In this document: positions 25,293 through 33,528 of the stretch, in pieces
Numbering within the stretch: position 1 is the first letter of the stretch
How the letters are laid out: each line of letters starts with the position of its first letter
Assembly: GCA_030607735.1 (NCBI GenBank)
Contig: JAUWJK010000004.1
Coordinates: forward strand, 1 to 37,873
Length of the DNA: 37,873 nucleotides
Direction: 5' to 3'
Source of the DNA: Candidatus Bathyarchaeota archaeon
GTDB lineage: Archaea > Thermoproteota > Bathyarchaeia > Bathyarchaeales > Bathycorpusculaceae
Notes under the pieces: model-generated
What the model was told of the DNA's origin: nothing
The model's database searches: none
What the model saw: only the letters and a program-made list of their open reading frames with translations
Position numbers and translations under genes: made by a program

Positions 25293-25389
25293 GTGTTTTT
25301 AAGTCATAAATTTAGGTATTTGTATGAATTATTGAAAAATTATTTTATTTTAATGATTCTATTATCAAAAACTGGCGGAAGATATTTAG

Positions 25390-25462
25390 TAGCCCGGGAG
25401 AGAATCGAACTCTCGTCTAAGGCTCCAAAGGCCTTTATGCTTGGCCGCTACACCACCGGGCT
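25390..25462 (-). tRNA. tRNA-Gln (anticodon UUG)
   Basis: The minus strand folds as a cloverleaf. Acceptor AGCCCGG pairs with CCGGGCT, followed by discriminator A. The D arm contains GTGTAGCGGCCAAGC. The anticodon stem AAGGC/GCCTT encloses the loop CTTTGGA, so the anticodon is TTG. The T arm is GAGAGTTCGATTCTCTC. The sequence is very close to known archaeal tRNA-Gln. CCA is not encoded and there is no intron. Confidence 0.95.
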
Positions 25463-29593: not shown

Positions 29594-30793
29594 ATGCAAA
29601 ATAACCCGGCTATAGTTTCTGTTGGTCGAACAAAATTTGGAGAGCATTATGGAAAAAAGCCCGAGAAACTTATGGAAGAGGCTTGGTTAGTGGCATCAAA
29701 TGAGTGCAACTTGGAACGAAAAAATCTGGAAGCGTGTTATCTTTCAGATTGTTTTCTCCCTATTACTAACAAACTAGGTTTAGAGGAAGGCTTTTTATCC
29801 GAACTTACTCAACTTCATGTTCCCATGGAGGTTACAAGTTCTGTTAGTGCTGCTTTGTTAGCTGCATGCAATGCAATCAAAGCAGGAACCTATGACACTG
29901 TTTTAGTTGGTGGAATAGAGAAGATGACTGATAGATGGGATAAAATCCGTGATGATCTTATGCTTCTAGAGGATCCTTGGAGTTATTATGCTGGTTGTAC
30001 ACCTGAGGCAAATCATGAACTCATGCTAAGGGCTTACATGAAAAAGTATCGAATAACTGGGGACGATGTAGAAAAACTAAATCTTGCTCTGGCAAAAGTG
30101 TCAGTTAAAAATCATGCTCATGCACTAAAAAACAAGTTTGCTCAATTTCACCGAAGAATAACGATAAAACAGGTTTTAAGTGCAAGGAAAAACGCTGGAA
30201 AACCATTAGGGTTGTATGATTTTGCACCAATATCTGATGGCGCTTCAGCATTAATACTTACTAGTGCAAATCTTGCGAAAAAAATGACTGATCATCCCAT
30301 TTATGTTTTGGGTGGTTCGTCCGCTACAGATTTTCTAACTTTTCCTTCTAGAGAAGACCTTACCGGTTTTTCTGCTACCCGAAATGCGATGAGAAAAGCT
30401 TTGAAGATGGCTAATCTTTCCCCCTTAGATATACAGTTAGCTGAAGTATATGACCAATCTACGGTTATGGAGCTCATTTCACTTGAAGACTTAGGGCTTT
30501 GTGAAAAAGGAACTGCTTGGTCATGTATACGTGGAAGCTGTGAAGATTACGATGGATACTATGAATCACGAGGAAAAAAAATATTTGTAAACATGAATGG
30601 GGGTCTAAAAGCAGATGGCAATCCTATAGGCGCAACAGGTGGCGCACAAATTTTTGAAATGTTTAAACAATTAAGAAATGAAGCTGATGAAAGCCAAGTG
30701 TTATTAAATGAGAATCCACCAAAAATTGGGTGCATTCAAGAACTTGAAGGCTTTGGCACTAAAGCGTATATTACCATTTTAGGAGACAAATAA
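29594..30793 (+). CDS. Thiolase-like protein without the catalytic residues
   Basis: 399 residues with the full thiolase fold of the archaeal acetoacetyl-CoA thiolase/SCP-x type: VGRTKFGEHYG, VKNHAHALKNKFAQF, APISDGASALIL, GLCEKG and GGLKADGNPIGATGG. Catalytic positions are changed. Where the family has ACASG with the acyl-accepting Cys there is TSSVSAA (81-87, no Cys). EVHD is EVYD (Tyr286). GHPxGATG is GNPIGATG (Asn343). It probably cannot form the usual acyl-enzyme. It is one base ahead of the DUF35-HMG-CoA synthase fusion, so it may be a scaffold partner or carry another chemistry. Translation starts at ATG after GGGGA. Confidence 0.88.
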   Translation: MQNNPAIVSVGRTKFGEHYGKKPEKLMEEAWLVASNECNLERKNLEACYLSDCFLPITNKLGLEEGFLSELTQLHVPMEVTSSVSAALLAACNAIKAGTYDTVLVGGIEKMTDRWDKIRDDLMLLEDPWSYYAGCTPEANHELMLRAYMKKYRITGDDVEKLNLALAKVSVKNHAHALKNKFAQFHRRITIKQVLSARKNAGKPLGLYDFAPISDGASALILTSANLAKKMTDHPIYVLGGSSATDFLTFPSREDLTGFSATRNAMRKALKMANLSPLDIQLAEVYDQSTVMELISLEDLGLCEKGTAWSCIRGSCEDYDGYYESRGKKIFVNMNGGLKADGNPIGATGGAQIFEMFKQLRNEADESQVLLNENPPKIGCIQELEGFGTKAYITILGDK

Positions 30794-30794
30794 A

Positions 30795-32303
30795 TTGAGT
30801 AGCGAACCTATTGAAAGAAGAGTTTCTTATATTGGAGATTGTTTAAGAGCCTGTCAATGTGGTATTTGTGGAAAAGAATACTTCGAAGTTAGAGACTATT
30901 GTGGTATTTGTGGAAGAAAAAGTTTAGGAAAAATGCGTAACATTTCCTTATTCTATGATAAAGGTAAACTTGAGCTATGCACTCTGATAACTGAACCTAC
31001 AAACAAATTTAGAAAATTAGGTAGTTATATCTATGGAATAGTATCGTTTCATAATGGAAAAATCAAAGTTCCTGGAAGAATAACCGACCAAATCCTAAAA
31101 AAAGATGAAATTGTTGATTTTTCAAAAATTGAAGGTCGTGAAGTTATTCCAAGGTTTCGGAGGCGTTATTCTGTAGGTGCTAGCGAGGTTATACCGACAA
31201 TTTCTTTAGCTTTTACTTTAGCTGATGAATATTATCCGTATCAAGAATACAAAATAATTGCTCCCAGTAAAGAATACAAGCTTCCAGGAATTGTTGGGTA
31301 TGGTGTTTATACTTCCAGGTTTAGGATCAAAGAAAATCGTATTGAACGTGCTGTTCCATTTATTGATGAGGACTCAATAACTGCAGCGGTTGAAGCGGGT
31401 AAGTTTGCTTTGATACACTCAGCAATTGATAGTGCATCTATAGGCAAAGTCTATGTAGGTTCTGAATCAAATCCTTATTCTGTTAAACCAATAGCATCAA
31501 AGGTTGCACAAGTCCTAAGGTTAGGCGAAGAAGTAGAGGATATGCAAGCTGTTGATGCTGTAGACACTGAATTTGCATGCAAAGCGGCTTCAAGCATGTT
31601 TAAAGATGCTGCTTCACTTGTTAATTATCCAGAATCTGGTATACAATATACCATGGTTATTGGTGCTGATAATTCTCAAGCTGCCCCTAGAGGTTGTCCG
31701 GGAGGCGAACTTGATGCTTTTGTTGGTTTTGGAGGAGCTGCCTATATTTTTGGGAAAGCTGATGTCATCGCTGAAATTGAAGGTTGGTACTCCGTTACTT
31801 CTGATACGCCTGATTTTTGGAGAAGAGATGGTCAACCTTTTCCTTTGCATGGAGGTCGTTTTACTGGTGATCCAGCTTATTTTAAACATGTAAAAAAAGC
31901 TACCACAAAACTTATGGAAAAATTCAATCTCAAACCAGAAGATATTGACTATTTTGTTACACATCAGCCTAATCCTAGTTTTCCAGTTAAGGTTGCAAAA
32001 CAGCTTGGTTTTAAAGAAGATCAATACTCAATCTCGCTTCAGGTGAACAAATTTGGGAATACTTATTCTGGATGTTCGCTTATAGGTTTGGCTGCGGTTT
32101 TAGATGTAGCTCAGCCGGACAATCGAATTCTTGTGACTAGTTATGGTTCAGGTGCAGGAAGCGATTCGTATTTGCTTAGAACCACTAACCAACTTGTAGA
32201 AAAAAGAAAACGTCAAAAGATAAACATAAAATCCCAAACAGAAAATCCGTTTATTGAGTTTGTTGATTACACAACTTATCGTCGACTTAAGTTGGGAATG
32301 TAA
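30795..32303 (+). CDS. DUF35 (Zn-ribbon/OB-fold) fused to HMG-CoA synthase-like domain
   Basis: 502 residues. Residues 20-40 form a rubredoxin-like zinc ribbon (C22, C25, C36, C39). About 45-130 fits the DUF35 OB fold. From about 164 (PGIVGYGVYTSRFRI) the protein matches archaeal HMG-CoA synthase: VGSESNPYSVKP, EFACKAASS with the acyl-accepting Cys262, SDTPDFWRRDGQPFP, HGGRFTG, HQPN (His390), GNTYSG and SYGSGAGSD. A stretch near 180 is about 14 residues shorter than in typical enzymes. In methanogens thiolase, HMG-CoA synthase and DUF35 are separate chains of one complex; here two are fused. Start is TTG with AGGAG ten bases upstream; the gap to the thiolase is one base. Confidence 0.9.
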   Translation: MSSEPIERRVSYIGDCLRACQCGICGKEYFEVRDYCGICGRKSLGKMRNISLFYDKGKLELCTLITEPTNKFRKLGSYIYGIVSFHNGKIKVPGRITDQILKKDEIVDFSKIEGREVIPRFRRRYSVGASEVIPTISLAFTLADEYYPYQEYKIIAPSKEYKLPGIVGYGVYTSRFRIKENRIERAVPFIDEDSITAAVEAGKFALIHSAIDSASIGKVYVGSESNPYSVKPIASKVAQVLRLGEEVEDMQAVDAVDTEFACKAASSMFKDAASLVNYPESGIQYTMVIGADNSQAAPRGCPGGELDAFVGFGGAAYIFGKADVIAEIEGWYSVTSDTPDFWRRDGQPFPLHGGRFTGDPAYFKHVKKATTKLMEKFNLKPEDIDYFVTHQPNPSFPVKVAKQLGFKEDQYSISLQVNKFGNTYSGCSLIGLAAVLDVAQPDNRILVTSYGSGAGSDSYLLRTTNQLVEKRKRQKINIKSQTENPFIEFVDYTTYRRLKLGM

Positions 32304-32309
32304 CAAACA

Positions 32310-32317
32310 TTTAATAA
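32310..32317 (+). promoter_or_regulatory. TATA box of the Yip1-like gene
   Basis: TTTAATAA directly after the HMG-CoA synthase stop; initiation near 32340 would start the transcript about four bases before TTG 32344. Confidence 0.45.
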
Positions 32318-32343
32318 ACTCAACTGCGGAAGAGCTAACTGAG

Positions 32344-33528
32344 TTGTCGGTCTTGGCAGTTAAAGAAGTACTTGGAGATATTCTTAGAGTTTTATATGCT
32401 CCTCGTAAGGTGTTCAAGGATGTAATTAAAAATCCTGGCTACTTGGGTCCAGTAATATTATTAATTATTTTCGTGTTAGCTCAAGTTGGGTCTTCTTACT
32501 TAGTTGCTTCAAGATCATATATTGAACAGACTAATCCTTTGGGTGATGTTGGTGATAGTTGGACAGCTAATGCGTTAAATTGGGAAGCAACTTCTGGCGT
32601 TGTTATTAGCAACAATACTGTTGATTTCATAAACAGTACATTGTATTATGGAGTTACCAGCATAGAATTTGTGGCTTCTGATTTACAGTCAATTAGTATG
32701 GGATTACCTGATTTTGGTGATTCTGTGAATTGTGGACCAGAAGGATTCAATAACGTTTCTTTGAGAGTGAAGATTATTTCTCCTGATTCTAATCCTGAGT
32801 CTGCATATTTAGTTTTATCTTCTTTAGATGAATCTAGTTTTGTTTATGACATAACTAACGAATTTAAAAACAACAATGATATTTGGACTAATTTGACTCT
32901 ACCCGTTGGTTTTGGAGATTGGACTGACATTGGGAATACAGCTGTTTGGGAAAATATAACTGGTTTAAACCTTGAATTTAGTTGGTCTGTTAACTCGACT
33001 GTAAATATGCTTGTTGATGGTCTCTTCTTTAGAGGTGATTTTAGAGGGCCTCTTGAATTATATGGTGTTTCTTATTTTGCTTCATCAGCAATTAATGCTG
33101 TTGCTCCATTTCTTTTTGAATGGCTTTTGTTAAGTGGTTTTATGTACTTGCTAATAAAAGGCTTAAAAAGTGAAAGCGAAGTGGTGTGGAGAACTTTAAT
33201 GGTTGCTGTTGGATACGCATTAGTTACAATAGTTATTCAAGCTCTACTATTGATGTTAGTGTATACTTCTTTACCTGACATTTATTATCCATTGGAAGTT
33301 CTTGCAGGTACTTCTGGAGAATTTCAAGTTGCCTACCAGGTTATTTTAGATAAAATTGCGTTTGTATCTAACGTTGGTAGCATAATACAAGTGGGTGTAT
33401 ACGTTTGGATAGTTGCCTTAGGGACATTTATTACTAACACAATGACTGACTTAGGTTGGCTGAAAAGTCTTTTGGTATCAGGAGTTAGTTTACTGTTAAC
33501 TGTGATTGTTCTAGGTTTTCTGCTTTAA
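32344..33528 (+). CDS. Yip1-like membrane protein with large external domain
   Basis: About 394 residues. The N-terminus (LGDILRVLYAPRKVFKDVIKNPGYLGP) resembles the start of Yip1-domain proteins. One membrane helix follows. A non-membrane domain of roughly 190 residues comes next, rich in Asn-X-Ser/Thr (NNT, NST, NVS, NLT, NIT), with a beta-rich look that recalls carbohydrate-binding modules. Four hydrophobic segments close the protein. The external domain inserted in a Yip1 fold is unusual. The start is not certain: TTG 32344 fits a leaderless transcript, while the longer frame begins inside the previous gene. Confidence 0.7.
   Translation: MSVLAVKEVLGDILRVLYAPRKVFKDVIKNPGYLGPVILLIIFVLAQVGSSYLVASRSYIEQTNPLGDVGDSWTANALNWEATSGVVISNNTVDFINSTLYYGVTSIEFVASDLQSISMGLPDFGDSVNCGPEGFNNVSLRVKIISPDSNPESAYLVLSSLDESSFVYDITNEFKNNNDIWTNLTLPVGFGDWTDIGNTAVWENITGLNLEFSWSVNSTVNMLVDGLFFRGDFRGPLELYGVSYFASSAINAVAPFLFEWLLLSGFMYLLIKGLKSESEVVWRTLMVAVGYALVTIVIQALLLMLVYTSLPDIYYPLEVLAGTSGEFQVAYQVILDKIAFVSNVGSIIQVGVYVWIVALGTFITNTMTDLGWLKSLLVSGVSLLLTVIVLGFLL

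Follow-up and report, generated by a model that had tools for sequence, protein, structure and literature searches.

A conserved thiolase without its catalytic residues beside HMG-CoA synthase in Bathyarchaeia

The complex that archaeal thiolase forms with HMG-CoA synthase (HMGCS) is usually explained by channelling, acetoacetyl-CoA being passed from thiolase to synthase. What, then, is the thiolase for when its catalytic residues are gone? The question is posed by a locus of Candidatus Bathyarchaeota archaeon (contig JAUWJK010000004.1), where the gene for a thiolase-like protein, which we call the pseudothiolase, lies upstream of the gene for HMGCS. It occupies 29594..30793 of the window, by which we mean the whole 37,873-nucleotide stretch that was analysed, and encodes 399 residues plus a stop codon (features below are on the plus strand unless stated otherwise). 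The answer we favour, with a probability of about two in three, is that the pseudothiolase is a catalytically dead subunit of the HMGCS complex, kept for its structure and its share of the CoA site, with acetoacetyl-CoA supplied in trans.

The thiolase fold and its altered active site

That this open reading frame encodes a thiolase fold had been claimed in an earlier note made from the sequence alone, and every comparison bears it out. Pfam recognizes Thiolase_C_1 (4e-28) and Thiolase_N (8e-10) in the protein; its top PDB relative by sequence is 6esq_A (1.1e-49, about 32% identity), and its AlphaFold model (pLDDT 91.5; 50 aligned sequences) finds 6et9_C first in a structure search, with a TM score of 0.91. 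The fold is of the SCP2/archaeal type. By fold and sequence family the pseudothiolase belongs with the archaeal acetoacetyl-CoA thiolases; its score against the curated equivalog NF053570 is 234 bits, below the cut-off of 600.

Membership of the active acetoacetyl-CoA thiolases is another matter. The note had listed three active-site changes, and all are real, but the change at the nucleophile is not the simple substitution it described. Alignment with intact relatives reveals that four residues of the Cys-bearing EAACASSS loop have been deleted, so that the region reads VPMEVTS----SVSAALL (VTR----SFSSALL in most orthologues). What remains of the loop is TSS at residues 81-83 (29834..29842), and in the model strand 78-81 leads nearly directly into helix 84-96. 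The nucleophilic Cys of the (A)CAS/CGS loop is absent from 89 of 89 orthologues.

Both catalytic His are missing as well; they are present in 50 of the 50 intact thiolases compared. Residues 284-290 (30443..30463) read EVYDQST in place of EVHDCFT. Here the D is invariant and the replacement for His is not: Tyr286 becomes Asn in 16 of the 89 orthologues and Cys in one. The residue after YD is an invariant Gln (Q288), Cys in many intact thiolases. Since the intact thiolases linked to HMGCS mostly have Cys or Ala there, the change to Gln would not by itself be disabling. At residues 342-349 (30617..30640) GHPVGATG has become GNPIGATG, and GNP is found in all 89 orthologues. This substitution alone is no proof of inactivity because two HMGCS-adjacent thiolases of family f25, L093 (5020-6162, plus strand) and L095, also have N at the GHP His while keeping their Cys (ENACASSG and ESACASSG, respectively). 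These two, which combine GNPIGATG with HDS or HDN, are the sole thiolases of their genomes.

Conservation and new invariant residues

The earlier note took the losses to reflect selection for a role other than thiolase chemistry rather than decay, and here it was right. Nearly every genome of the order (Bathyarchaeia, including Bathycorpusculum and Bathyarchaeum) carries an orthologue, and several families belonging to other classes contain orthologues as well. The active-site losses are common to all 89 that were aligned, which come from independent assemblies; the deletion, Q288, S289 and N343 are each found in 89 of 89. Within the genus, dN/dS is 0.074-0.092 for the pseudothiolase, 0.057-0.070 for the HMGCS gene and 0.108 for an intact second thiolase. 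Such conservation, with such ratios, excludes chance, decay and assembly error: the pseudothiolase is a maintained protein under strong purifying selection.

The old active site has also acquired new, strictly conserved residues. Alignment and conservation single out two stretches. Residues 134-142 (GCTPEANHE; 29993..30019) align with G.TF..LYA of intact thiolases, and within the dead clade E138, H141 and E142 are invariant or nearly so. Residues 383-390 (ELEGFGTK; 30740..30763) replace the C-terminal N.GG.G loop, and E383, E385, G386, F387, G388, T389 and K390 are similarly constant. The new polar set standing in for the thiolase residues is E138, H141, E142, Q288, S289, N343, E383, E385 and K390. 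Of the 12 positions that tell dead proteins from intact ones, eight fall in five active-site loops, which together comprise 34 of the 399 residues (p 5e-7, an optimistic value, the loops having been picked from knowledge of thiolases and after viewing the alignment). The glycine-rich motif N..GG....G..GA.G is near-invariant in pseudothiolases. Across independent Cys-less lineages it is G107, K110, H174, D215, D287, E298, N333, G336, G337 and G342 that stay invariant, and the catalytic residues that diverge.

The new residues could plug the site with salt bridges, line a pocket for a ligand or make up a different active site. Whichever it is, an old active site that is not drifting, and in which new residues are invariant, counts against a pure scaffold, which need not require them.

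The HMG-CoA synthase partner and the supply of acetoacetyl-CoA

One nucleotide past the thiolase stop, a TTG codon starts a protein of 502 residues (30795..32303). The earlier note had seen that this HMGCS-like gene was tightly coupled and that its Cys and His were intact, both of which hold. What it overlooked, besides the deletion in the nucleophile loop and the recurrence of Cys loss in the phylum, was that a DUF35 domain is fused to the N terminus of the synthase. Residues 19-96 of the fusion match the DUF35 protein 6esq_E (8.9e-7). Pfam zf-ChsH2 falls below cut-off for the window protein and above it in relatives. The zinc-ribbon cysteines are C22, C25, C36 and C39 (30858..30911), the first three invariant among fused proteins and C39 conserved in 92%. 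The HMGCS part has 6esq_I (42% identical) as its top match by sequence and, for its model, by structure, and the catalytic Glu224 (31464..31466), Cys262 (31578..31580) and His390 (31962..31964) are invariant in 98 proteins plus 6esq_I. The locus thus has what the other two partners of a thiolase/DUF35/HMGCS complex should have, a synthase with its Glu, Cys and His and a DUF35 zinc ribbon with its OB domain. The same fusion adjoins the thiolase at the loci of close orthologues and in intermediate clades. Downstream follows a gene for a Yip1-domain membrane protein (32254-33528), its reading frame overlapping the end of HMGCS. Elsewhere the window carries an archaeal 23S rRNA truncated where the contig ends (1-2968) and, on the minus strand, a tRNA-Gln(TTG) (25389-25462).

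Could the pair run a condensation other than that of mevalonate synthesis, as the earlier note proposed? We think not. The genome, 96% complete, holds this single HMGCS, whose catalytic residues are invariant, and an HMG-CoA reductase, which together identify the locus as the mevalonate locus. From its genes, it presumably makes HMG-CoA for archaeal lipids.

The note's other proposal, that the synthase is fed by a different thiolase, has fared better. Its search for a second intact thiolase/HMGCS pair turns up half of one: there is no second HMGCS in the genome, but contig C94 encodes a thiolase (1001-2134) with EAACASSG, EVHDCF and GHPVGATG all intact, followed by its own stand-alone DUF35 (PF01796, PF12172). 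A further thiolase is present in 42 of the 44 genomes that carry a dead locus. All the second-thiolase sequences we read from such genomes keep the Cys, and all except one truncated copy have HD and GHP or the classical NEAF and GHP. More thiolase-like genes without the usual motifs (L183, L190, L184 and L189) adjoin intact second thiolases, some of them followed by zinc-ribbon proteins.

The association extends beyond the dead clade. Among 60 Cys-less loci, 57 (42/44 and 15/16) come with a second thiolase that has its Cys, and five of 35 intact loci come with any further thiolase (Fisher p 3e-16, a figure that ignores kinship). On the tree the data reduce to four independent contrasts, none in the opposite direction but too few for significance; the link between Cys loss and a second thiolase is therefore suggestive, not proven. 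Nor is supply by another thiolase universal. The two dead-locus genomes in which we found no further thiolase are G002, which is 91% complete and whose sisters have one, and G043 (97%), where searches with PF00108 and PF22691 returned nothing beyond L229/L273, its dead thiolase and fused HMGCS. To G043 must be added G108 (99%, one contig), which has a Cys-less locus and no Cys-intact PF00108 thiolase. Its only other thiolase-like protein, L257, is also without Cys (ENTSGSGG/ELHDMA/GHP). L257, a thiolase-like protein that is Cys-less in a second way, resembles ST0096 of Sulfolobus tokodaii (4yzo). ST0096 itself (DNTSGSGG) shares the want of a Cys with the pseudothiolase and differs in retaining HD and GHP; it branches apart from the fused clade, and its branch is long.

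Weighing the possible roles

The best guide to function is the complex of Methanothermococcus thermolithotrophicus (6esq, 6et9), which has the same three components encoded by neighbouring genes. Our locus, whose likeness to it we know from genes and single-protein models, differs in that the thiolase retains neither the nucleophile loop nor either catalytic His and in that DUF35 is fused to the N terminus of HMGCS, the order being thiolase then fusion. In the archaeal complex CoA is bound at the interface of all three proteins (PMC6392133), and thiolase and HMGCS have a common CoA site (PMC12329534). With a site so constructed, loss of the thiolase protein would damage the CoA site of HMGCS. 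We propose that the pseudothiolase still associates with HMGCS and its DUF35 domain, would complete a CoA site like that built by all three Methanothermococcus proteins and would no longer make acetoacetyl-CoA. That task would fall to the second thiolase, whose product would reach the HMGCS complex from solution. With another thiolase as supplier, the catalytic residues would become dispensable and the protein would not. A protein that is needed, with chemistry that is dispensable, would explain why the pseudothiolase is retained, why HMGCS is intact, why the losses are repeated and varied and why there is a second thiolase.

A precedent for an inactive yet indispensable subunit comes from the PhlABC acyltransferase of Pseudomonas protegens (5m3k), a homologous assembly of three parts that includes one dead member of the thiolase superfamily. 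It is the mirror image of our locus: its HMGCS-like PhlA is the dead subunit and its thiolase-like PhlC the active one, whereas our locus pairs a dead thiolase with an intact HMGCS. The inactive PhlA is still required (PMC6392133, PMC2954200).

The new invariant polar residues, which have supplanted those of thiolases across five active-site loops, are what most invites a different view, namely that the active site has been repurposed and the protein is another enzyme, an aldolase or acyl transferase for example, working with HMGCS. There are relatives to point to. The aldolases TcLtp2 (6ok1) and CtSal (9myr) are thiolase folds, bound to DUF35 and put to new use with other partners, in which the thiolase residues have been replaced, as in the pseudothiolase, and both have Tyr at the HD position (PMC12329534). 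Our protein has its DUF35 partner in the adjacent gene and most pseudothiolases have the Tyr, but it is unconserved among them (17 of 89 have Asn or Cys instead) and so unlikely to be an essential base, which led us to reject a Tyr-base aldolase like Ltp2 or Sal as the main reading. The second catalytic residue is Tyr344 in Ltp2; in Sal it is Cys304 of the YDCY motif (PMC12329534), which corresponds to the invariant Q288. The two aldolases are structurally more distant, ranking 42-49 in the structure search. Moreover, beside the same HMGCS other lineages have put quite different residues (D, E, Q, A or G) in place of the Cys, a pattern more readily explained by loss than by one new activity, and this locus holds the genome's only HMGCS. 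We consider a repurposed enzyme unlikely. Marginally less doubtful is a broader and bolder thought, that the dead clade built a new pocket to perform or gate some new step tied to HMG-CoA synthesis, turning a channelling complex into a different machine.

The pocket might instead serve as a putative sensor or gate, binding acetoacetyl-CoA, acetyl-CoA or CoA and regulating or feeding HMGCS without any chemistry. The near-invariance of the glycine-rich motif and of the new pocket residues is in keeping with this, and the common CoA site of the known complex (PMC6392133), if it is a fair analogy, would permit ligand binding; the charged residues could equally plug and close the pocket, and we give the idea only a small chance. 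That some other residue stands in for the Cys, so that acetoacetyl-CoA is still made, is very improbable. G043 and G108 must obtain acetoacetyl-CoA from somewhere, but the nucleophile loop has been deleted, both His positions are replaced and almost all genomes have an intact thiolase. The sole conserved Cys nearby, C92, which we considered as a displaced nucleophile and ruled out, lies in the middle of helix 84-96, and intact relatives conserve it as well. To have lost every catalytic residue is what one would expect of a decaying pseudogene, or of an artefact of assembly, but with an open frame, dN/dS below 0.1 and shared losses in 89 orthologues from independent assemblies, this is barely conceivable.

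Our preferred reading of a dead structural and CoA-site subunit gains from the evolutionary history. The thiolases whose partner is the DUF35:HMGCS fusion all group in one clade (support 100/100), which splits into an intact half (L089-L092 and L096-L098, with ACASSS or ACASGG, HDCF and GHP) and a dead half (100/100). L099, which has lost the Cys loop and kept both His, groups with the intact half. The AU test speaks against one loss common to L099 and the dead half (p 0.03); L099 sits on a long branch. Outside the fusion clade, many HMGCS-adjacent thiolases in further families of the phylum are intact. Others are Cys-less, with ENGDGSGG, ENGDASGG, EAGEASGL, EAAQASGG, DSGGASGG, EAGQISGH or SSGEVSGA where the Cys loop should be. 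From the tree and this phylum-wide survey, HMGCS-linked thiolases have lost their Cys independently at least four times.

We therefore regard the window locus as a variant of the known thiolase/DUF35/HMGCS system that recurs in the phylum and has a real, conserved pseudothiolase subunit. The open-access literature we searched, a scope outside which the 2018 paper on the complex falls, makes no mention of an HMGCS-linked dead thiolase. If whole lineages retain a thiolase subunit that is chemically dead, channelling is not the sole reason for the complex; the synthase would appear to depend on the thiolase fold as such, probably for the CoA site or for stability. The repeated losses amount to natural separation-of-function mutants. 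They also carry a caution for annotators, as genes labelled acetyl-CoA acetyltransferase beside HMGCS are often not thiolases. One record, CP070835.1, has two divergent pseudothiolase loci (L107 and L174), whose products share 74% and 64% identity with the pseudothiolase of the window.
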